Assembly: GCF_003344865.1 (NCBI RefSeq)
Contig: NZ_CP031165.1
Location: 1,493,910-1,557,909 of the forward strand
Direction: 5' to 3'
Length of the DNA: 64,000 nt
Source: Euzebya pacifica
GTDB lineage: Bacteria; Actinomycetota; Nitriliruptoria; Euzebyales; Euzebyaceae
The translations under genes and the position numbers were made by a program. The notes below the pieces were generated by a model. That model was not told the origin of the DNA and did no database searches. It worked only from the letters and a program-made list of their open reading frames with translations. This document shows positions 8,250 through 19,798 of the stretch, piece after piece. Each line of letters opens with the position of its first letter. Position 1 is the stretch's first letter.

Positions 8250-9116
8250 ATGTACATGTCCACCGACGACGCCCGCAGCGACTTCTTCCTGGCCGCGGCC
8301 GTGTACGTGATCGGGCCCACCCTGCTCAGCGCGGTCCTGCGCAGCACCGGCGGGCTCCTCAACGGCACGGTCGGCCAGTGGCTCCTCGCCGTCGGGGTTC
8401 CCGTGCTGCTGATCGCCGCCATGCCGCTGTACCTGATGCGGTATCGAGACGAGAGCTGGTCGAGCCTGGTGCGCGGCTCCGGCGATGCCGCACCGCTCGG
8501 GCTGGCCCTGGTCGCCCCGGTGGTCGTCGGGGTGCTCCTCGGCGACCTGATCGCCGGTGGCGGCCTGGTCGACGGCCTGACCGGCACCTTCCAGGATCCG
8601 ATCATCCTCGTGGGCCGGGTGCTGCGCTGGCTGTCCATCGCCGTGCTGGCCGTCTTCCTGTGGCGCCGTGCGGAGTACGCCTTCCGATCGATCAGCGAAC
8701 GCATGGAGGTGCTGGTCACCCGTGCCGCCGCGGCCACGATCGGCGCCTCCGTCGTCGCGTCGCTGCTCCTGCTGCCCCGGGTGTCCACCATCGGGTTCGC
8801 CATGGCGCCGCTGGGCTTCGCCGCGGCGTGGTTCCTGGCCACACGGCTGGTCCCCGCGGTCGGCATGGGGGAGCAGTGGCAGGTCTACGCCCCGCTGATC
8901 ACGCTGGCGCTCGGACCGCTGGAGATCTTCGCGCTGCTGACCGATCCGCTGGACTTCCTCGTCGGGCTGCGCACCGCGGGCATGGTGGCGGGTTTCGGTC
9001 TGCTGGCCGTGATGGGCCTGTCCGCCGGCAAGGGCCCCCGCATGCCGCTGGTCATGGCGGCAGCGTTCGCGCTGCTGACCAGCGTGCCCGTCTTCGGGGC
9101 GTCGCTGGGCCTCTAG
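8250..9116 (+). CDS. Polytopic membrane protein, CPBP-like but unassigned
   Basis: A 288-residue protein made almost wholly of hydrophobic segments, about eight predicted helices, separated by short loops such as MRYRDESWSS and WRRAEYAFRS. I do not recognise conserved catalytic residues; the EExxR of CPBP proteases is absent. The start is ATG 8250, with ATG 8256 in the same frame as alternative. TACGCT sits eight bases upstream and no Shine-Dalgarno is seen, so it may be leaderless. The intergenic space to the divergent CinA-like gene is 42 bp, so both promoters overlap. Confidence 0.65.
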   Translation: MYMSTDDARSDFFLAAAVYVIGPTLLSAVLRSTGGLLNGTVGQWLLAVGVPVLLIAAMPLYLMRYRDESWSSLVRGSGDAAPLGLALVAPVVVGVLLGDLIAGGGLVDGLTGTFQDPIILVGRVLRWLSIAVLAVFLWRRAEYAFRSISERMEVLVTRAAAATIGASVVASLLLLPRVSTIGFAMAPLGFAAAWFLATRLVPAVGMGEQWQVYAPLITLALGPLEIFALLTDPLDFLVGLRTAGMVAGFGLLAVMGLSAGKGPRMPLVMAAAFALLTSVPVFGASLGL

Positions 9117-9151
9117 CAGCCAACGGCCGGCAACGTCCCTACTGTGGGGAC

Positions 9152-10168
9152 ATGCCGAACAGGACGTGGATGCTCGGCGTGGCCGTGGTGTTCCTCGCCC
9201 TCGCAAGCGTTGCCCTGTCCGAACCGGCTGACGAGGGGCCGCGCTGGATGCTCACCGGCGACGTCGGCACCAAGATCCTCGACGCCGGTCGGCAGCACAC
9301 GCTGACCATCGACCGCCTCGACGGCGAGCTGCTGCGCCTGCACGGGCCCAAACCCCAGGCCGCGCCACCCGCGCCGGGGGAGGAGCTCGCGGCCTTCGCG
9401 GGGCTGTCGACGTGGATCGACACCTACGACACCGACCTGACGCCCGCCCAGCAGGTCGACCTGGCCGCCGCCAACGGGGTCCAGGCGATCTACCTGCAGG
9501 TCTCGCGGGAGTCGACCAACGGCGCCCTGCACGACCACGAGCGGCTGGCCGAGGTCATCGAGCTGGCCCACGACGCCGGGCTGCGCGTCATGGTGTGGAC
9601 GATCCCCGAGTTCGAGGACCCGGACACCGACCTCGCCCGCGCCAAGGCCGCGATGGCCTTCGTCACGCCACGCGGCGACCGGCCCGACGCCTTCGGCCTG
9701 GACATCGAGGTCGACGACCTGGCCGACGTCGGCCTGCGCACCCAACGGGTGCTCGAGCTGTCCGCCGAGCTGCGCAGCTGGGTCGGTCCGGACTACCCGA
9801 TGGCGGCGATCGTCCTGCCGCCCATGCAGCTGGAGGTCAACACCACCTGGTGGCCGGGCTTCCCGTATGCGGAGCTGGCCGAGCACTACGACGTGTTCGT
9901 CCCGATGAGCTACTCCAGCTATCGCGGCACCGACACGGTCATCACCCACCAGTGGAACCACGACAACGTCGTCCGGTTGCGTCAGCTGGTCGGCGACCCC
10001 GACCTGCCGGTGCACCTCGCCGGCGGCATCGCCGACCGGCTGCCGGAGGTCGAGACCTTCGTGCGGGCCGCCCAGGACACCGGGGTCATCGGTGCCGGCC
10101 TGTACGACCTGCGCACGACCCCACCAGCGGCCTGGGCCGCACTGCAGGCGCTGCGAACCGACGGCTGA
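9152..10168 (+). CDS. Secreted or membrane-anchored TIM-barrel glycoside-hydrolase-like protein
   Basis: A 338-residue protein with an N-terminal hydrophobic segment (residues 5-22) followed by a barrel-like fold. STWIDTYDTDL opens it; GVQAIYLQVSR, AHDAGLRVMVWTIPEF, AFGLDIEVDD, PMAAIVLPP, DVFVPMSYSSYRG and LAGGIADR look like successive strand ends. The acidic pair in GLDIEVDD is a candidate active site. It resembles GH18/DUF4015-type putative glycosidases; substrate unknown. TACTGT lies six bases before the ATG, suggesting a leaderless transcript. Confidence 0.65.
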   Translation: MPNRTWMLGVAVVFLALASVALSEPADEGPRWMLTGDVGTKILDAGRQHTLTIDRLDGELLRLHGPKPQAAPPAPGEELAAFAGLSTWIDTYDTDLTPAQQVDLAAANGVQAIYLQVSRESTNGALHDHERLAEVIELAHDAGLRVMVWTIPEFEDPDTDLARAKAAMAFVTPRGDRPDAFGLDIEVDDLADVGLRTQRVLELSAELRSWVGPDYPMAAIVLPPMQLEVNTTWWPGFPYAELAEHYDVFVPMSYSSYRGTDTVITHQWNHDNVVRLRQLVGDPDLPVHLAGGIADRLPEVETFVRAAQDTGVIGAGLYDLRTTPPAAWAALQALRTDG

Positions 10169-10246
10169 GGTCGGGCTCGGATCACGCCGCTTCGACGTCG
10201 AGGACGCGAGTTCCTGCTGTCCGACCGGACGCGATGGGGTTTCGGT

Positions 10247-10270
10247 GATACTTAGGTGTCCTTTACCTTA
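10247..10270 (+). promoter_or_regulatory. DtxR/IdeR-like iron box over the promoter of the haem operon
   Basis: TTAGGTGTCCTTTACCTTA (10252-10270) matches the 19-bp DtxR/IdeR consensus at 12 of 19 positions, including the outer TTAGGT and ACCT halves. It overlaps a -10-like GATACT (10247-10252), where an iron-loaded repressor would block transcription. The haem oxygenase gene starts 39 bases downstream. Confidence 0.75.
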
Positions 10271-10309
10271 GTTCGAGTCACGCGTCCCCCTCGCCCTGGG
10301 AATCACTCG

Positions 10310-10963
10310 ATGTCCACCACGAAGTCCGTCGCCGATCCGTTCTCGGAGGTCCTCCGCCAGGAGACCCTCGACGCCCACCGCGCCGCCGAGCGTGCCCCGT
10401 TCGTGGGGGCGTTGATGGGTGGCCAGCTCGGGGGAGAGGCCTACGTGGACTTCCTCGCCCAGCTGTATCGCGTCTACACCGCCCTCGAGGAGTGCGCGGA
10501 GATCGTCGCTGAGGACCCGATCGCCGGGGACTTCCTCGACGCACGCTTGCTCCGGGTGTCGGCGATCGAGGCCGACATGGAGGCCCTCGTCGGGCATCGC
10601 TGGCGTGCCGTCCTGCCGTCGGCGGTGGCGTCCACGACCGCCTACGTCGAGCGCATCTGGACCGCCCCCCAGGAATGGCCCAGCGCGTTCGTGGCCCACC
10701 ACTACGTCCGGTACATGGGTGACCTGTCCGGCGGGCAGATCATCGCCCGGATGCTCGCCACGAACTACGGCTTCGGACCCGACAAGCTGTCGATGTACCA
10801 CTTCGCCGACGTCAAGGGCCCCGTGGTCAAGGCGACCTACCGCGACCGGCTCGACCGGGCGCCGTGGAGCGAGGACGAGCGCCAGCGCATGGTCGAGGAG
10901 TCGATCTTCGCCTACGAGTTCAACGCGCGCATCTTCGACGATCTGGGCGCTCGGTACCTGTGA
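10310..10963 (+). CDS. hmuO: Haem oxygenase (biliverdin-producing)
   Basis: A 217-residue haem oxygenase, close to the usual bacterial size. The proximal haem histidine is H23 in ETLDAHRAAE; HHYVRYMGDLSGGQ forms the flexible distal helix. It opens haem to biliverdin, CO and ferrous iron in the cytosol. The ATG at 10310 is preceded by a weak GGGAA. The gene is first after an iron box and overlaps the following surface-protein gene by 4 bp (GTGA). Together with hmuTUV this makes a haem-iron acquisition operon, expected to be induced when iron is scarce. Confidence 0.95.
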   Translation: MSTTKSVADPFSEVLRQETLDAHRAAERAPFVGALMGGQLGGEAYVDFLAQLYRVYTALEECAEIVAEDPIAGDFLDARLLRVSAIEADMEALVGHRWRAVLPSAVASTTAYVERIWTAPQEWPSAFVAHHYVRYMGDLSGGQIIARMLATNYGFGPDKLSMYHFADVKGPVVKATYRDRLDRAPWSEDERQRMVEESIFAYEFNARIFDDLGARYL

Positions 10964-12012
10964 GCACGCTGTTTGTGCGCACGGTGCCCGTGCGCGCCTT
11001 CCGGACGCGGGCGACCGCGCGCGTCGCCGCCGTGCTCCTCGTCGGGCTCGGGCTGGCCCTGGTCGCGGGAACGCCAGCCCACGCGGCACCGCGCATCGAC
11101 GTCACCCCCGACAGCGACCTCGACCCGGCCGGCCAGGTCGTCACGGTGCGCGGTGAGGGGTACGACACGACCAAGGGCATCTACGTCGCCTGGTGTGTGG
11201 TGCCGCCCCCCGGTCAGGTGCCCTCGCCCTGTGGCGGCGGCGCGGACCAGGACGGCACGTCGGGCTCCTCGGTCTGGGTGTCGTCCAACCCGCCCCCGTA
11301 CGGCGTCGGCCTGGCCCGGCCCTACGGGCTGGGTGGCACGTTCGAGGTGGACGTCGAGGTCACCCGCTGGATCAACGACGAGGTCGACTGCCTCGTGACC
11401 GCGTGTGCCGTGACGACCCGCAACGACCACACCCGGACCAACGACCGGTCCCAGGACGTCTTCTACCCGGTGTCGTTCCGTGCCGAGCCGACGGCCGAAC
11501 CGACCCCGCGTTCGACCCCGGCGCCCCAGCCCACCGCTCCCGCCGAGCCATCGACGGCACCACAGCCCACGCAGCCGGCGCCGTCCCAGCAGCCCCCGGC
11601 ATCGACGCAGCCTGCCCCCACGCAGCCCGCGTCGACACCTACCGAACCGTCCAGCCAGGCGACCTCCGCGTCGAGGTCGACCGTCCCCGCTGCCACGCCG
11701 ACCCCGGGCAGCACCACGGCCCCGCTGGGCGACGCCACTCCCGAGCCGCTGGTCCCCTCCGCCGATGGCACCACCGTCCCTGATGACACGGCCGGCACCG
11801 GGACCACGACGACCGCCGCGCCCCCAAGCGCCGACGCCCCCGCCCTCGCCGAGGGTCCTGACGGCGGTCCGGCCGCCGGTGACGACGACGCCGCGCTTGC
11901 CTCCACCACAGGCGCGGAGGCGCCGAACCGCGGCCCGCTGATCCTCCTTGCGGCGTTGCTGACCTCCTCCACCGGTGTGGCGGCGATCCGACAGAAGCGG
12001 CAGGAACCGTGA
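10960..12012 (+). CDS. Membrane-anchored surface protein with neocarzinostatin-like 4-Cys domain (putative haem relay)
   Basis: 350 residues: signal peptide (1-42, ending AHA), an Ig-like domain (about 45-173), a Pro/Ser/Thr/Gln-rich stalk (about 175-318) and a C-terminal membrane helix followed by RQKRQEP. There is no LPxTG. The domain has cysteines at 79, 91, 144 and 149: a C-x11-C pair and C-x4-C. This is close to the two disulfides of the neocarzinostatin family, and the same pattern occurs in the gene at 15012. Its GTG overlaps the hmuO stop and its end overlaps hmuT, so it sits inside the haem operon where HtaA-type proteins sit in corynebacteria. No HtaA or NEAT motif was seen. Haem binding is inference. 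Confidence 0.75.
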   Translation: MSTLFVRTVPVRAFRTRATARVAAVLLVGLGLALVAGTPAHAAPRIDVTPDSDLDPAGQVVTVRGEGYDTTKGIYVAWCVVPPPGQVPSPCGGGADQDGTSGSSVWVSSNPPPYGVGLARPYGLGGTFEVDVEVTRWINDEVDCLVTACAVTTRNDHTRTNDRSQDVFYPVSFRAEPTAEPTPRSTPAPQPTAPAEPSTAPQPTQPAPSQQPPASTQPAPTQPASTPTEPSSQATSASRSTVPAATPTPGSTTAPLGDATPEPLVPSADGTTVPDDTAGTGTTTTAAPPSADAPALAEGPDGGPAAGDDDAALASTTGAEAPNRGPLILLAALLTSSTGVAAIRQKRQEP

Positions 12013-13013
12013 CCCGCTGGCTGTGCGCTGCGCTCGCGATCCTCGCCCTGCTGACCGGCTGCTCGAGCGGCACATCGAGCCAGCCCCTTGCCGATGCGGC
12101 CGCCGACGCGACCGAGCCCGGTCGCGACGTGCCGCTGGTCGACGAGCCGTTGCCGGTCATGCCTGCGCCCACGCCACAGCTGCCCGTCACCGTCGAGTCT
12201 GCTGACGGGCCCACCGTCGAGGTCGCCGACGTCTCCCGCATCCTGCCGCTGTCCGGTGGCGTGGCCGAGGTCGTCTACTCGCTGGGCCTGGGCCAGGCGA
12301 TGGTCGGACGGGACGAGCAGGCCACCTTCGCCGAGGTCGCCGACCTGCCGGTGGTCACCGACGCCCACTCCGTGTCGGCCGAAAGCGTCCTGTCGCTGCA
12401 ACCGACCGTCGTCATCGGCGACACCCTGACCGGGCCGCCCGAGGCGCTCGACGCCATCCGCGGCGCCGGCGTCCCCGTCGTGCTCGTCCCCGAGGCGTGG
12501 ACGCTGGAGGACATCTACCCGCGGATCCAGGCGGTCGCCGACGCCCTCGGGGTCACCGGTGCGGGGGCCGAGCTGATCGACGCCACCCGACAGCGCGTGG
12601 ATGCGGCCGGCGCACAGCCGCTGGAGCCGGCACCCACCGTCGCCTTCCTCTACCTGCGGGGGACCGCCGGGGTCTACCTGTTGGGTGGCGACGGCTCCGG
12701 CGCCGACGCGCTGATCGAGGCGGCGGGCGGCATCGACGCCGGGTCCGCCCTCGGCCTTGCCCCCTTCACCCCGCTGACCAGCGAAGCGCTGGTCTCCGCC
12801 GCACCCGACGTGCTGCTGATCATGTCCCGCGGCCTGGAGAGCGTCGGCGGGATGGACGGCCTGGCCGAGGTCCCCGGCATCGCCCAGACGCCGGCCGGGG
12901 CCAGCGGCGACGTCATCGTCGTCGACGACGGCCTGCTGCTGTCCTTCGGCGCCCGAACCCCCGCCGTGGTCGAGTACCTCGCCGGACAGCTCCAGGGGTG
13001 GGCCGCCCCGTGA
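12009..13013 (+). CDS. hmuT: Haem ABC transporter substrate-binding lipoprotein
   Basis: A 334-residue lipoprotein: signal LALLTGCSS with lipobox cysteine near residue 18, then a Pro/Asp-rich linker and a periplasmic-binding-protein class III fold. Landmarks are RILPLSGGVAEVVYSLGLG, VVGRDEQATF, ESVLSLQPTVVIG and PDVLLIMSRGLESVGG, all typical of HmuT/ChuT haem-binding proteins. It would hand haem to HmuU. ATG 12009 overlaps the previous stop by 4 bp, and the stop overlaps hmuU in the same way. Confidence 0.93.
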   Translation: MTRWLCAALAILALLTGCSSGTSSQPLADAAADATEPGRDVPLVDEPLPVMPAPTPQLPVTVESADGPTVEVADVSRILPLSGGVAEVVYSLGLGQAMVGRDEQATFAEVADLPVVTDAHSVSAESVLSLQPTVVIGDTLTGPPEALDAIRGAGVPVVLVPEAWTLEDIYPRIQAVADALGVTGAGAELIDATRQRVDAAGAQPLEPAPTVAFLYLRGTAGVYLLGGDGSGADALIEAAGGIDAGSALGLAPFTPLTSEALVSAAPDVLLIMSRGLESVGGMDGLAEVPGIAQTPAGASGDVIVVDDGLLLSFGARTPAVVEYLAGQLQGWAAP

Positions 13014-14098
13014 CCGCTGCCGCCCCCACCGCCGCCTCGTCGACGCGACGTCACCCGGATGTCCCCCGGCTTCGCCTGTCCGGCCGGAGCCTGCTTGGCC
13101 TGCTCGGGCTGCTGTGCGTGGCGGTCACGGTCGCGGCCATCGCCGCGGGGGCCTTCGAGGTCGGGACGGCCGACGTCGTGCGCATCCTGGCCGACCCGTT
13201 CACCGGCAGCGCTGCTGACGTCGACCCGATCGCCCGCGACGTGGTCCTGCAGATCAGGCTGCCCCGTGTGCTGCTCGGCCTGGTCGTCGGCGCCGGACTC
13301 GGCACGGCGGGCGCGCTGCTGCAGGGGATGTTCGGCAACCCGCTGGCCGAACCCAGCATCATCGGCGTGTCCGCCGGGTCCGCCGTCGGCGGGGTGTTCG
13401 CCATCGCGCTGGGTGCGACCGCAGCCGGCATCTGGGTGCTGCCGGCCGCCGCGTTCGCCGGCGGGCTGCTGACCACCCTGCTGGTCTACGCCGGAGCCCG
13501 ATCCGGCGGGCGCACCGAGACGGTCACGCTCGTCCTGACCGGCATCGCGGTCAACGCCATCGCCGGTGCGCTGATCGGCCTGGCGATGTTCATCTCCGAC
13601 GACGCCGAGATCCGCTCGATCACGTTCTGGTCCCTCGGCAGCGTCGCCTCGGCATCGTGGCGCAGCCTGCTCGTCGCCGGACCCCTGGTGCTGATCGGCC
13701 TGCTGGTCGCGGGACGCTTCGCCCGGCCGCTGGACCTGCTGGGCCTGGGGGAGGGGCCCGCCGGCCACCTCGGGGTCGACGTCGGCCGGCTCCGCCTGCA
13801 GCTGATCACCGTCGTGGCCGTCCTCACCGCTGCGGGTGTGGCCGTGTCGGGGATCATCGCCTTCGTCGGGCTGGTCGTCCCCCACCTCGTGCGGCTGCTG
13901 GCCGGCCCCGCCCACCGGACCGTCCTGCCCGCGAGCGCCCTCGGCGGGGCCATCGTGCTGACCGCCGGCGACATGCTTGCCCGCACCATCGCCGCCCCGG
14001 CGGAGATCCCGCTGGGTGTCCTCACCGCGCTGCTGGGCGCTCCTGTGTTCCTTGTGCTGCTGCGCCGGACCCGCCGCCAGCAGGGAGGCTGGGCATGA
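13010..14098 (+). CDS. hmuU: Haem ABC transporter permease (FecCD family)
   Basis: A 362-residue permease with about ten membrane helices. Family motifs are RLPRVLLGLVVGAGLGTAG, GNPLAEPSIIGVSAG and GIIAFVGLVVPHLVRLL, which contact substrate and the ATPase. The GTG start at 13010 (GTGA overlap with hmuT) places the hydrophilic N-terminus at TAAAPTAASSTRR; the open frame extends upstream, but only as a shadow of hmuT. It forms the HmuUV channel with the next gene. Confidence 0.95.
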   Translation: MTAAAPTAASSTRRHPDVPRLRLSGRSLLGLLGLLCVAVTVAAIAAGAFEVGTADVVRILADPFTGSAADVDPIARDVVLQIRLPRVLLGLVVGAGLGTAGALLQGMFGNPLAEPSIIGVSAGSAVGGVFAIALGATAAGIWVLPAAAFAGGLLTTLLVYAGARSGGRTETVTLVLTGIAVNAIAGALIGLAMFISDDAEIRSITFWSLGSVASASWRSLLVAGPLVLIGLLVAGRFARPLDLLGLGEGPAGHLGVDVGRLRLQLITVVAVLTAAGVAVSGIIAFVGLVVPHLVRLLAGPAHRTVLPASALGGAIVLTAGDMLARTIAAPAEIPLGVLTALLGAPVFLVLLRRTRRQQGGWA

Positions 14099-14937
14099 CC
14101 GCCGTCGTCACGGACCGTTCGGTGGCCGATGGGGGCACCCCGCACCGGACCCCTCGCCCAGCCGTCGGCTCGACCGTCCTCGCCCTCCGGTCGGTCGCCA
14201 TGACCCGCCGGGACCGCACCGTGCTGGACGACGTCTGCTTCGACGTCGCCGCAGGTGAGCTGGTCGCCGTCGTCGGAGCCAACGGGGCCGGCAAGTCCAC
14301 CCTCCTCCACGGCGTTGCCGGTGACCTGGCCGTGTCGTCGGGGTCCATCGAGCTGTGCGGAACGGCGCTGACGTCACAGCGGGCCCTCGACGCCGCACGC
14401 CACCGGGCGGTCCTGACCCAAGACGCCACCGTGGCGTTCCCGTTCTCCGCTCGTGACGTGGTGGCCATGGGACGTGCGCCCTGGCACGGCACAGCCGCAG
14501 CTCGTGCAGACGACGCGATCGTCGACTGGGCCATGGACGCCGTCGACGTCACCGACATGGCGGCCCGGTCGGTCACCCAGCTGTCGGGTGGCGAGCGTGC
14601 CCGGGTGATGCTGGCCCGCACCCTCGCCCAGGACACACCGCTGCTGCTGCTCGACGAACCCGTCGCGGCCCTGGACCCCCATCACGCCGACCGGGTGCTC
14701 GCGGTCCTCGCCTCCCGTGCCCGGGCCGGTGACGCCGCCGTGGTCGTGCTCCACGACCTGACCGCCGCCGCGGCATGGGCCGACCGGATCGTGCTCCTCG
14801 CCGACGGCGGGGTGCTCGCCGCCGGCCCACCCCGAACGGTCATGACCCCCGAGCTGCTCGGTCGTGCCTACCGCGCACCGATGGAGGTCATCGCCCACCC
14901 CGAGACCGGCGCGCCGATCGTGCTGCCGGCCCGCTGA
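14095..14937 (+). CDS. hmuV: Haem ABC transporter ATP-binding protein
   Basis: A 280-residue ABC ATPase. Walker A is GANGAGKST, the signature is LSGGE (QLSGGERARVMLART) and Walker B is LLLLDEP, followed by the H-loop VVLHDL. FSARDVVAMGR is characteristic of FecE/HmuV importers. The ATG overlaps the hmuU stop (ATGA). It energises haem import. The next gene starts 74 bp later without an evident terminator, so it may be cotranscribed. Confidence 0.95.
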   Translation: MTAVVTDRSVADGGTPHRTPRPAVGSTVLALRSVAMTRRDRTVLDDVCFDVAAGELVAVVGANGAGKSTLLHGVAGDLAVSSGSIELCGTALTSQRALDAARHRAVLTQDATVAFPFSARDVVAMGRAPWHGTAAARADDAIVDWAMDAVDVTDMAARSVTQLSGGERARVMLARTLAQDTPLLLLDEPVAALDPHHADRVLAVLASRARAGDAAVVVLHDLTAAAAWADRIVLLADGGVLAAGPPRTVMTPELLGRAYRAPMEVIAHPETGAPIVLPAR

Positions 14938-15011
14938 GCGCCGGCGACCCTGCCGTCCGTCCCCACCCGCTGATCGTCGTCCTGCCGCCCGACCCCGAGG
15001 TCCTCCACGCC

Positions 15012-16385
15012 ATGTCATCCCGATCCTTGCTGCCCACCCGCCTCCTGCTGGTGCTGGGTGTGCTCGCCCTCCTCAGCGGCCTGGTCCTGCCCGCCGTGGC
15101 GCAGGAGGAGTTCAGCCTGACCGTCGCACCGACCGTCGGGTTGGCCGAGACCGACACCGTCAGCGTCACGCTGGCCGGGACACCGTCCGGTGAGGGCCTG
15201 TACGTGCGCCAGTGCATCGCCCCCGTGGGGGAGGAGCGGCCGACCGTCTGCGACGGCACGGGATCGTGGGCCACACTGCCCGCCGGCCTGCCCGGGACGC
15301 CCGACGGATCGCTGCAGCCGTCGCAGGGCACCTTCGACTTCCCGGTCGCCCAGGCCTTCGGTGACGTCGACTGCACCGTCGTGCAGTGCGGCATCTTCAC
15401 CCGACGCGACCACAACGACCCGGGCGACACCTCCCTGGACCGATGGGTGCCGATCACCTTCGCCGCCGGCGTGCCCGGGGGCGCGCGGGCGGTCGAGCGC
15501 GTGCAGGGCAGCGACCGGTTCACCACCGCGGCCGTGGCGTCGGGATCGTTCGAGGCGTCGTCGGTGGCCTTCGTCGCCAACGGCACTGGGTTCGCCGACG
15601 CCCTCGCCGGCGGCCCGGCAGCGGTCATCAACGGCGCCCCGTTGCTGCTGGTCGAGGCCGACACCGTGCCCCCCGCCACGTCGGATGCACTGACCGCGTT
15701 GGCTCCCGAGCAGATCGTCCTGCTCGGTGGCGAGGGCGCGATCAGCGCTGCCGTCGAGCAGGAGCTGGCCGCCATCGCGCCGACCTCCCGCCGATCCGGG
15801 GTCGATCGGTGGGCCACCGCGGCGGCCGTCAGCGCGGCGGCGTGGCCCGACGGGGCCACCGATGTGCTGGTCGCCTCGGGCATCGACCACCCCGACGCGC
15901 TGTCCGGCGGCGCCGGGGCCGGGATGCTCGGGTCGCCGCTGCTGCTGGTCGCCACCGACACGGTGCCCGAGGCGACACGGGCGGAGCTCGAGCGGTTGTC
16001 CCCCTCGCGCATCACGATCCTCGGTGGGCAGTCGTCGGTGTCGGCGGCGGTGCAGCAGGAGCTGAACGGCATCGCGCCGACCACGCGGATCGCCGGGACC
16101 AGCCGGTTCGACACCGCCGCGACCGTGGCCACGACCCTGTGGTCCTCGGGGACCCGTCGAGCTGTCGTGGTCAACGGCGAGGGCTTCGCCGACGCCCTGT
16201 CGGCGGCACCCCTGGCCGGGCTGTACGGCGGGCCGGTACTGCTGGTCACCCGTGACACCGCGCCGCAGGAGACCCTGGATGCGCTCGACCAGCTGGGCGT
16301 GACGACCGTGACCGTCCTCGGTGGCCCGGGTGTGGTCAGCAACGCGGTGCTGGAGGCCCTTGTCGGCGGCGGCGCGTCGCAGTAA
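15012..16385 (+). CDS. Secreted 4-Cys domain protein fused to three cell-wall-binding repeats
   Basis: 457 residues: signal peptide (1-30), a neocarzinostatin-like domain (about 34-152; Cys68, 80, 121, 126) paralogous to that of the gene at 10960, then three cell-wall-binding repeat 2 (CWB2/PF04122) units from about residue 160. Each begins like RVQGSDRFTTAA, RSGVDRWATAA or RIAGTSRFDTAA and ends in an LLGG/ILGG/VLGG turn. CWB2 repeats hold proteins on the wall non-covalently. Sharing VDC-x4-C and the R-x-DH motif with the membrane-anchored partner suggests a relay from wall to membrane to HmuT (inference). Confidence 0.82.
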   Translation: MSSRSLLPTRLLLVLGVLALLSGLVLPAVAQEEFSLTVAPTVGLAETDTVSVTLAGTPSGEGLYVRQCIAPVGEERPTVCDGTGSWATLPAGLPGTPDGSLQPSQGTFDFPVAQAFGDVDCTVVQCGIFTRRDHNDPGDTSLDRWVPITFAAGVPGGARAVERVQGSDRFTTAAVASGSFEASSVAFVANGTGFADALAGGPAAVINGAPLLLVEADTVPPATSDALTALAPEQIVLLGGEGAISAAVEQELAAIAPTSRRSGVDRWATAAAVSAAAWPDGATDVLVASGIDHPDALSGGAGAGMLGSPLLLVATDTVPEATRAELERLSPSRITILGGQSSVSAAVQQELNGIAPTTRIAGTSRFDTAATVATTLWSSGTRRAVVVNGEGFADALSAAPLAGLYGGPVLLVTRDTAPQETLDALDQLGVTTVTVLGGPGVVSNAVLEALVGGGASQ

Positions 16386-16580
16386 CCTGCGTTCCACAAT
16401 GCGCCTGTAGAGCACCCTTCCGACCGCCACCACGGCTTTCCGTGTCGCGCGCGTCGTCATGGGTGCTCGTCGCGTTTTCGCGCGAATCGTCGGTGGTGTC
16501 GGTCTGCTGTTGTGGGCTCGGACCGCTGTCGCGCGAGGCCGAGGGTGCTGCGCGCGCGGAAAGCAGGAGAGGAATCGTCC

Positions 16581-16751
16581 ATGCCTGCCTCGTTCAACAA
16601 CCGCTCGCGCCGTCCCGCCCCGACCCCACGTCGTCCCGCCCGCCCGTCCAACGGACCCGGCGGACCCAAGGGGCCACGCGGAAAGGGGCCGAAGCGGCCG
16701 CCCCCGCCGCGGCCGGCACGTCGCCACCCCGGCCGTCACGGCCAACGCTAG
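16581..16751 (+). CDS. Small Arg/Pro-rich basic protein
   Basis: 56 residues with very high Arg/Pro/Gly content (RRPAPTPRRPARPSNGPGG, then GPRGKGPKRPPPP); no fold or family recognised. It is supported as a gene by AGGAGAGG eight bases upstream of the ATG and by a strong hairpin 12 bases after the stop. Its net charge suggests a nucleic-acid or ribosome partner, but that is a guess. The 195 bp upstream (16386-16580) contain no other credible gene. Confidence 0.55.
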   Translation: MPASFNNRSRRPAPTPRRPARPSNGPGGPKGPRGKGPKRPPPPRPARRHPGRHGQR

Positions 16752-17621: not shown

Positions 17622-18275
17622 TCAACCGCCGTGGGCGCCGGACCACAGCGGCCGCAGGTGGTCGCGGAAGGACGGGGCAAGGGTCGTGGGAAGGACTGCG
17701 GGGGTGCGCTGCCTGATGGTCAGCCATGCCGCATCCACTGCAGGCACCGGCCTGAACGCCTGTCGGGGGACATGGCCGCCGACGGTGAAGGTCCACCACG
17801 GCGCCCAGGCGGCCGACCGAAGCGTTGTCGGAGGCGCCGCTGCGCGTTTGTGGGCCACCTCGGCCTGCACCAGCAGATCGGCTCGAGTCGGCCCCTTGTC
17901 CGGGTCGTCGAGCAGCGCGTCGAGGATGTCGCTCGTCACGCCGAACGGGACGTTGCCGACCACCCGGTAGGGCTCGCGTGGCCAACGGAACCGACGGATG
18001 TCGCAGGTGATCACACGGACCCGATCAACGTCGGCGTAGCGGCTGCGAAGCCGTTCCGCGAGCTGGCGGTCACGCTCGACTGCCACGACCCTGACGCCCG
18101 TCTCGGCGAGCGGATCGGTCAGCGCGCCGCGTCCGGCCCCGATCTCGACGACCAGGTCATCGGGGTCGAGGGCGAGCCGCTCAACGGCTCGGGCGACCAC
18201 CCCTGAGTCGACGAGGAAGTTCTGGCCGTGGGTTCGTCGTCGCTGGTCGGCCGCTGAGCGGCGTCGCACAGCCAC
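17622..18275 (-). CDS. erm: Erm-family 23S rRNA adenine-N6-methyltransferase, short C-terminus
   Basis: A 217-residue Rossmann methyltransferase of the KsgA/Erm family. THGQNFLVDSGVV near residue 15 is the Erm/KsgA opening, EIGAGRGALT (44-53) is motif I, and NVPFGVTSD (N108-G112) is the catalytic motif IV. Methylation of A2058 confers MLS resistance. The chain stops soon after VDAAWLTIRQR and lacks the C-terminal helical domain of typical Erm enzymes (about 240-380 residues), as in mycobacterial Erm(37). The GTG at 18275 has GAGG seven bases upstream; GTG 18269 is an alternative. A short ORF with a strong Shine-Dalgarno overlaps the start. Confidence 0.85.
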   Translation of the reverse strand: MAVRRRSAADQRRRTHGQNFLVDSGVVARAVERLALDPDDLVVEIGAGRGALTDPLAETGVRVVAVERDRQLAERLRSRYADVDRVRVITCDIRRFRWPREPYRVVGNVPFGVTSDILDALLDDPDKGPTRADLLVQAEVAHKRAAAPPTTLRSAAWAPWWTFTVGGHVPRQAFRPVPAVDAAWLTIRQRTPAVLPTTLAPSFRDHLRPLWSGAHGG

Positions 18276-18306
18276 GGTGGCGCCTCGTGAGCATGAAGGT
18301 TGGCAT
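18181..18306 (-). CDS. Putative leader ORF overlapping the erm start
   Basis: A 41-codon ORF starting at ATG 18306, with a strong GGAGG six bases upstream. It reads MPTFMLTRRHRGCATPL and continues out of frame through the first ~30 codons of erm. The only good Shine-Dalgarno in the erm leader serves this ORF. It may be a regulatory leader peptide, a device for translational coupling, or the true N-terminus of erm displaced by a frameshift. It resembles no known protein. Confidence 0.35.
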   Translation of the reverse strand: MPTFMLTRRHRGCATPLSGRPATTNPRPELPRRLRGGRPSR

Positions 18307-18436
18307 GACGGTCCTCCGCGTCGGTCGGTGTCGTTGCAGCCGATGGACGATAGCGGACTTGCGGTGTCGGGAACAGAGGCTTGTGAAAACGTGGTCCGCG
18401 CACACACGGATCCCGGCCCCGATGTCACACCCAGGC

Positions 18437-18450
18437 CGTACACTTGTTCG
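18437..18450 (+). promoter_or_regulatory. LexA-like SOS box overlapping a leaderless -10
   Basis: CGTAC-actt-GTTCG differs at one base from a perfect dyad of the actinobacterial LexA box (CGAAC-N4-GTTCG). It contains the -10-like TACACT (18439-18444) and ends one base before the ATG at 18452, so LexA would cover the transcription start. Confidence 0.65.
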
Positions 18451-18451
18451 T

Positions 18452-19798
18452 ATGAAGGTCGGGCTGGATCGAGCGCCGGGTGGAGGGTCCTCCGCCGGTG
18501 TCGGTGTGCTCGATCCGGTTGACTCGGCGGTCTCGTTGCTGCGCGAGGTCGACCGGCTGATGGCCCGGTTGCTGCGCTGCATCCAGCAGGCCGGCGGCGT
18601 CGCCAGGGATGGTCTGCCGGCCCGCCGACTGATCGGCCTCGCCGCGGACGTGACCGGTGCCGAAGCGGCGTTCCTCGAGCGGTGTGTGCAGACGCTGTCG
18701 GCGATGCCCGAGACCTGGCAGGCCTTCGACCAGGGCTGCCTGTCGTGGTCACAGGTCCGCGCCATCGTCATGCACGCCCGCGACCTGTCCGTCGCCCAAC
18801 GACAGACCCTCGACGACCAGCTCGCCGCCGCCGTCGGTACCGCCCGCGACGTCGAACCCGACCGGATCGGCGAGATCACCGCCGACCTCGCCTGGCGCAT
18901 CGACCGCACGGCCGTCGACACGGCCGCCGAGCGGGCACCGGATCATCCGTCGGCGGTCTGCCAGCCCTCCTTCGACGGATGGGGCGACTGGTACATCCAC
19001 GCCGACCCCGAGCTCAACGCCGTCCTCGGCCAGGCCATGAACGCCGCCGCCAACCGACCCACAGCCGCACAGGGACCCGCAGGGCACGACCACCACCTCG
19101 ACGTCCCTGACGACGCGGTTGGCGACGACGACCCCGAGATCCCGGACGTGCCGACTGATGACGAGGGCACGCCGATCCCCAAGAAGTACCGGGACACCCG
19201 GCCACGACGGGTCCAGCTCGCCGAAGGGCTGTACCGGGCGCTCAGCGAGTGGCTTGCCACCCCCGCCCCCGGACGACCAGCCCGACCCCGCCTGTCGGCC
19301 ATCGTCGACGTCAAGGACCTCCTCGCCGACAGTGACGGTCCGGACGGCCGGGCGACCGGGCGGTTGTTGTGGCAGACCGCCGGCGGATCCACCCGCATCA
19401 GCCAGGTCACCGCCCAGGCATGGGCCTGCGACGCCACCATGATTCCCATCATCACCGACGGCACCCTCGTGATGGCCGCCGGACGTGGCGACACCCCCGT
19501 CACCAAACCCCATCGTGATGCCCTCGACGCCAGGGACCAGAGCTGCCGGTTCCCCGGCTGTCGTGCGCCGGCACGGTGGACCGACGCCCACCACGTCATC
19601 CCACGGCCCGGCCCGACCGACACCACCAACATGGTGTTGCTGTGCCGCCGTTGCCACCTGCGGGTCCACGCCCCCGGCTGGACCCAGACCCTCCAGCCCG
19701 ACGGCACCTACACAGTCCAGCACGGTCGCACCCGGCTGGTCTCCCGACCCCCGCTGCGACCGACCCAACCAAGACCGGCCCAGCCAAGACCGACCTGA
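18452..19798 (+). CDS. DUF222 / HNH endonuclease-domain protein (13E12-type)
   Basis: 448 residues. The N-terminal two thirds are a DUF222 region (LLREVDRLMARLLRC, GCLSWSQVRAIVMHARDL). The C-terminus is an HNH nuclease: CRFPGCRAPARWTDAHHVIP, then N-x-VLLCRRCHLRVH, with zinc cysteines and the catalytic histidines intact. The family is abundant in actinobacteria; several mycobacterial members belong to the SOS regulon, consistent with the LexA-like box here. TACACT lies seven bases before ATG, so the mRNA is probably leaderless. Pro/Arg/Gln repeats fill the last 15 residues. It is divergent from erm. Confidence 0.9.
   Translation: MKVGLDRAPGGGSSAGVGVLDPVDSAVSLLREVDRLMARLLRCIQQAGGVARDGLPARRLIGLAADVTGAEAAFLERCVQTLSAMPETWQAFDQGCLSWSQVRAIVMHARDLSVAQRQTLDDQLAAAVGTARDVEPDRIGEITADLAWRIDRTAVDTAAERAPDHPSAVCQPSFDGWGDWYIHADPELNAVLGQAMNAAANRPTAAQGPAGHDHHLDVPDDAVGDDDPEIPDVPTDDEGTPIPKKYRDTRPRRVQLAEGLYRALSEWLATPAPGRPARPRLSAIVDVKDLLADSDGPDGRATGRLLWQTAGGSTRISQVTAQAWACDATMIPIITDGTLVMAAGRGDTPVTKPHRDALDARDQSCRFPGCRAPARWTDAHHVIPRPGPTDTTNMVLLCRRCHLRVHAPGWTQTLQPDGTYTVQHGRTRLVSRPPLRPTQPRPAQPRPT

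Follow-up and report, generated by a model that had tools for sequence, protein, structure and literature searches.

The window, i.e. the whole 64-kb stretch of Euzebya pacifica DNA that was analyzed, contains a predicted haem uptake operon encoding six proteins. Two of the products, NCS1 and NCS2, carry a domain with a predicted neocarzinostatin (NCS) fold. The features are listed with the profile or alignment on which each assignment is based.

10252-10270, no strand assigned: DtxR/IdeR-like iron box TTAGGTGTCCTTTACCTTA, 14/19 to the DtxR consensus
10310-10963, + strand: HO, haem oxygenase of the HmuO type (PF01126, Heme_oxygenase, 1.3e-49; alignment with HmuO 1iw0)
10960-12012, + strand: NCS1, signal peptide, NCS-fold domain, Pro/Thr-rich linker and C-terminal membrane anchor (sequence; chromo_anti 1.2e-8)
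11092-11484, + strand: predicted NCS-fold domain of NCS1 (63-sequence alignment; model pLDDT 89.6, pTM 0.85; NCS Z 12.4)
11428-11430: codon of His157 of NCS1
12009-13013, + strand: HmuT, predicted haem-binding lipoprotein (PF01497, Peripla_BP_2, 1.5e-29; alignment with 5az3)
13010-14098, + strand: HmuU permease, FecCD (PF01032, 8.3e-91)
14095-14937, + strand: HmuV ATPase (NF010068 haem ABC ATPase, 279 bits, cut-off 261)
15012-16385, + strand: NCS2, signal peptide, NCS-fold domain and three CWB2 cell-wall repeats (CW_binding_2 1.6e-50, three stretches)
15117-15467, + strand: NCS-fold domain of NCS2 (chromo_anti 1.7e-12; C-1027 apoprotein 3.7e-5; PF00960 above cut-off in the whole-genome search)

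The first five genes, in the order HO-NCS1-HmuT-HmuU-HmuV, overlap by 4 bp at every junction and the NCS2 gene starts 74 bp beyond the end of HmuV, exactly the gene run, gap and coordinates given by an earlier sequence-only reading of this DNA. The upstream DtxR/IdeR-like box which that reading had also noticed lies 40 bp before the HO ATG. It is the top DtxR-type site across the window, its score was reached in 15/5000 local shuffles, and 0.01 occurrences of its core pattern are expected in 64 kb. A congener, G002, has a box at the equivalent place (15/19). The genome encodes one DtxR-family regulator, and together with the 19-bp operator upstream this would place the operon in a DtxR/IdeR regulon. 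Scans for sigma-70 promoters and terminators detected none, which can be expected at >70% GC, and there were no Rfam matches within 9–18 kb. Downstream of the operon, the frame at 17622-18270 (- strand) resembles an Erm/KsgA-type rRNA methyltransferase (HGQNFLVD...EIGAGRGALT...NVPFGVTSDIL). By eye, 18287-19798 (+ strand) encodes a DUF222/HNH-like protein; the next product, which extends to 21512, is an ABC-F-like ATPase.

HO aligned with HmuO 1iw0 at E 1.9e-37, with the proximal haem-ligand His (His23) and the helix HHYVRY-GDLSGGQ conserved. It combines the three attributes of an HmuO-type enzyme, namely a PF01126 match, the proximal His and the distal Gly-rich helix. HmuT aligned with Corynebacterium glutamicum HmuT (5az3) at E 3.4e-50. 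The haem contacts of the C. glutamicum protein are His141, Tyr240 and Arg242 (PMC4926363), and all three are conserved in HmuT as His120, Tyr215 and Arg217. The initial assignment of a haem uptake operon was upheld by the family models and by the retained haem residues of HO and HmuT. Judged from these sequences, the operon almost certainly imports and breaks down haem.

The two surface proteins are related to each other through a common domain (BLASTP E 9e-11) in which four Cys are kept, as had been described. In NCS1 the C-terminal hydrophobic segment ends with a basic tail. A PDB search with the NCS1 domain as single query returned nothing useful and profiles were required. A profile (A2) built from seven such domains found neocarzinostatin at E 1.8e-10. 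The NCBI chromoprotein model chromo_anti matched NCS2 and NCS1 at 1.7e-12 and 1.2e-8 respectively, under its 86-bit equivalog cut-off, and PF00960 scored above cut-off for NCS2 only in the whole-genome search. The domain had been called both neocarzinostatin-like and unrecognised. The first description agrees with the profile and structural matches. The second stands insofar as detection is weak and fails insofar as PF00960 and the chromoprotein model do detect the domain. An AlphaFold model of the NCS1 domain was generated from 63 sequences and compared with known structures. The best ten VIA-align entries all belonged to the NCS family (Z 9.2–12.4, rmsd 1.8–2.6 Å), the next unrelated entry scored 6.4, and macromomycin was the sole Foldseek match at E ≤ 0.001. 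Other folds, mostly antibodies and SKICH domains, had Z < 6.5 and were set aside as sharing the common sandwich arrangement. The model thus predicts an NCS β-sandwich with both disulfides conserved.

Tyr75, Cys79, Cys91, Trp106, Cys144, Cys149, Asp156 and His157 are invariant across the 63 sequences. The NCS2 domain conserves the four Cys and a His (His134) and has no equivalent of Tyr114. Asp156-His157 aligns with NCS residues 100–101 (the printed alignment stops at 100, and 101 follows by contiguity), part of a loop that helps to bind the ligand of an NCS variant (PMC3754942). The alignment places the invariant His157 beside the putative cleft, a mapping that falls short of demonstrating haem binding, and the conservation of His157 and Trp106 could instead be structural or serve protein contact. 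If the domain were a mere structural spacer raising other modules off the membrane, as Ig-like domains frequently are, the tandem NCS copies in some loci would be understandable. NCS1 has no other domain to raise, however, and 18 positions are invariant among 63 sequences that are only 50–67% identical to NCS1. We consider a spacer function hardly credible.

Other genomes were scanned for the domain, one genome per species, using a domain-only profile. The A2 profile was too diverse for scanning contigs and the close set A4 was used in its place. The scan generated 228 relatives, and 80 loci were retained. HmuT was present in 78/80 loci, HmuU in 62/80, HmuV in 58/80 and HO in 36/80, whereas HmuT was found in 0/17 generic PF00960 loci (Streptomyces TIG-like proteins and others), which have an unrelated context and were kept as the control rather than as relatives. 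The search for the domain beside hmuTUV, suggested by the sequence-only reading, thus revealed a tight linkage. The NCS and HmuT genes are adjacent, divergent in 42 loci and co-directional in 36, with a median gap of 425 bp from domain edge to domain edge. The two loci lacking HmuT are L172, which stops soon after the NCS gene, and L215 from Streptomyces, which has HO and HmuU. An iron box of at least 15/19 was detected in 56/81 loci (the 80 related loci plus G002) and in none of the Markov shuffles, and in 52 of the 56 it precedes a haem-locus gene by no more than 500 bp. No relatives were found among plasmid records. NCS proteins very probably act in the haem pathway.

Some loci deserve separate mention. 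The most elaborate NCS-only arrangement found is L122 (G399), where at least 7 NCS domains in at least 3 proteins surround HmuT-HmuU-HmuV at 8373-16711 in a genome without HtaA. Two MAGs titled Dehalococcoidia (Chloroflexota), L142 and L202, carry an NCS-HmuTUV-HO locus; these may place the locus outside Actinomycetota or may be binning errors. Within the genus, the operon is conserved in G002 at 77–93% identity, and the congeners G001 and G003 have neither HO nor NCS nor HmuT. Because G002 holds the whole operon and the other two lack these genes together, it is the operon as a unit that comes or goes within the genus.

The NCS proteins had been proposed to stand in for the HtaA proteins of corynebacteria and the NEAT proteins of Firmicutes. 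A Pfam scan of the six operon proteins matched neither HtaA nor NEAT, and a search of the whole E. pacifica genome for HtaA (PF04213) gave no match at E ≤ 1, as the proposal would have it. The proposed replacement of HtaA is borne out here and in at least 28 further genomes; 28/35 genomes without HtaA near the NCS locus have none anywhere in the genome. It does not hold for the family as a whole, since HtaA lies within 8 kb of 45/80 loci and several genomes join NCS and HtaA domains within a single protein. In a 396-genome sample of the phylum, the NCS domain was found in 12 genomes, and HtaA was present in 8/12 of these versus 11/384 others (p 2e-9). The HtaA state changed on the NCS tree at least 4 times (starred branches) and up to 8 times. 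Given these associations, fusions and state changes, NCS is the steady companion of HmuTUV. It is a general partner that is functional also where HtaA is absent, and HtaA comes and goes. Corynebacterial htaC was considered as an explanation of the operon and rejected, HtaC containing an HtaA domain. ThiX-type genes were likewise considered, and ThiX is a homologue.

The fused copies form a separate class in which the first disulfide and Tyr114 are mostly missing and the His is present in under half, so from sequence it appears that not every NCS copy can bind ligand alike. They also bear on whether the domain binds haem at all. NCS domains might work in the haem system as haemoprotein receptors, or as a platform on which HmuT or HtaA docks, with haem passing straight to HmuT. 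The linkage to HmuT would fit such a role, the fusion partner HtaA is already a haem binder, the His is often lost in the fused copies, and some surface proteins of corynebacterial haem operons (CirA-like) lack an HtaA domain. We nevertheless think a non-binding role unlikely, as the conserved loop coincides with the ligand loop of NCS and the apparent haem auxotrophs described below keep NCS without HtaA, leaving no other surface haem binder apparent.

Seventeen loci have NCS and HmuT, mostly with HmuUV, in the absence of HO, HtaA or an iron box. They come from freshwater actinobacteria of the Nanopelagicales type and from Acidimicrobiia, and the set was fixed ahead of the hemB test. hemB (HemB, PF00490), the single haem-pathway gene tested in the 37 genomes, was missing in 14/17 of these genomes versus 0/20 others, the window genome included (Fisher p 1.1e-7), a comparison of mostly draft genomes from two lineages that are not phylogenetically independent, so that the p-value overstates independence. 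The hemB-less loci, which lack HtaA, a local HO and an iron box, are L159, L161, L164, L168, L173, L174, L177, L178, L179, L180, L186, L199, L207 and L213. Haem auxotrophy has been reported for the acI lineage. As hemB is absent and the locus is kept without iron control or haem breakdown, these organisms most simply import haem as a cofactor. L174, L180 and L193 are from MAGs titled Bifidobacterium breve; their NCS genes cluster with those of freshwater actinobacteria, and the MAGs are probably mislabelled or mixed bins.

The ligand could also be another small hydrophobic molecule, such as a haem precursor, a corrinoid or a siderophore, imported via the same ABC transporter. FecCD importers take several substrates, HmuU resembles BtuC models, and NCS proteins natively hold non-haem chromophores. 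This alternative is nonetheless very unlikely in our view: there is an HO within the operon, the haem ligands of HmuT are conserved and the family is associated with hemB loss.

In the Isd/NEAT relay of Firmicutes, Ig-like domains, some attached to the wall by sortase, deliver to a lipoprotein-ABC importer. The present system is alike in that wall-held and membrane-held Ig-like domains would feed such an importer. It differs in having no NEAT match, a different β-sandwich family, CWB2 repeats in place of sortase attachment, and a C-terminal helix without a sortase motif. The HtaA/ChtA-HmuTUV system of Corynebacterium (PMC12494546) shares the iron-boxed operon and the anchored surface protein beside HmuT, HmuUV and HO, and comparable chemistry at the haem, through His or Tyr, is plausible. 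The NCS proteins lack the CR (HtaA, PF04213) domain, however; NCS is a 7-strand sandwich with two disulfides, whereas CR is an 11-strand fold with an axial Tyr on a helix. The apoproteins of neocarzinostatin, C-1027 and macromomycin (PF00960) share the fold (Z 9–12), both disulfides and the position of the pocket-side loop. They are only 22–29% identical to the present domains, which are membrane- or wall-anchored, linked to hmuTUV, and next to the cleft carry an insert of another kind (GGG...WISSNPPPY). Apart from the chromoproteins, the closest chain of solved structure is C. glutamicum ThiX (PDB 7qhm_M; E 2.9e-10), a homologous domain with the Trp and Asp-His-Thr conserved. Chain M of 7qhm is annotated as thiamine biosynthesis protein X. 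In the bcc-aa3 supercomplex ThiX is a lipoprotein subunit; it has been described as thiamine-related, and its soluble domain is absent from the structure (PMC8795186). It shows that the NCS fold is capable of other work.

Building on the operon, its box, the NCS fold, an HmuT and HO competent for haem, and the linkage of the family to HmuT and to haem auxotrophy, each established computationally, we propose the following model. The operon would be repressed by iron, and haem would be imported and its iron released. NCS2, kept in the wall via its CWB2 repeats, and NCS1, whose Pro/Thr stalk and C-terminal helix tie it to the membrane, would handle haem outside the cytoplasm. The cleft that antitumour chromoproteins use for the enediyne would here catch haem, and the haem iron would lie near the invariant His157 and perhaps also Tyr75 or Tyr114. 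The relay would run from NCS2/NCS1 to HmuT, then HmuUV and finally HO. Direct haem binding, the ligand residue and the relay order are what we infer. An iron-repressed haem-import and iron-release operon with NCS-fold surface proteins that handle haem is, taken as a whole, a reading we hold to be quite probable. That the NCS domain itself binds haem we hold to be probable.

In the open-access literature, with most subscription papers lying outside it, no description of an NCS-HmuTUV family was found, neocarzinostatin and HtaA never occurred together, and the term 'neocarzinostatin family' appeared only for a phage metagenome. The family is likely new to the literature. We lean slightly toward counting the NCS fold, after NEAT and HtaA/CR, as a third type of haem-binding domain on Gram-positive surfaces, and toward seeing it as the core HmuTUV receptor across much of Actinomycetota, including the haem-auxotrophic freshwater lineages. 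If so, the carriers of enediyne drugs would share ancestry with haem-binding proteins. For ThiX, as part of the respiratory supercomplex of corynebacteria, a haem-related role would become a new hypothesis, provided the domain binds haem. Haem binding by NCS would also fill a gap in haem acquisition by the many actinobacteria without HtaA, name the sole surface receptor for the apparent freshwater haem auxotrophs, and give a natural context to a fold that has been met almost exclusively in anticancer chromoproteins.
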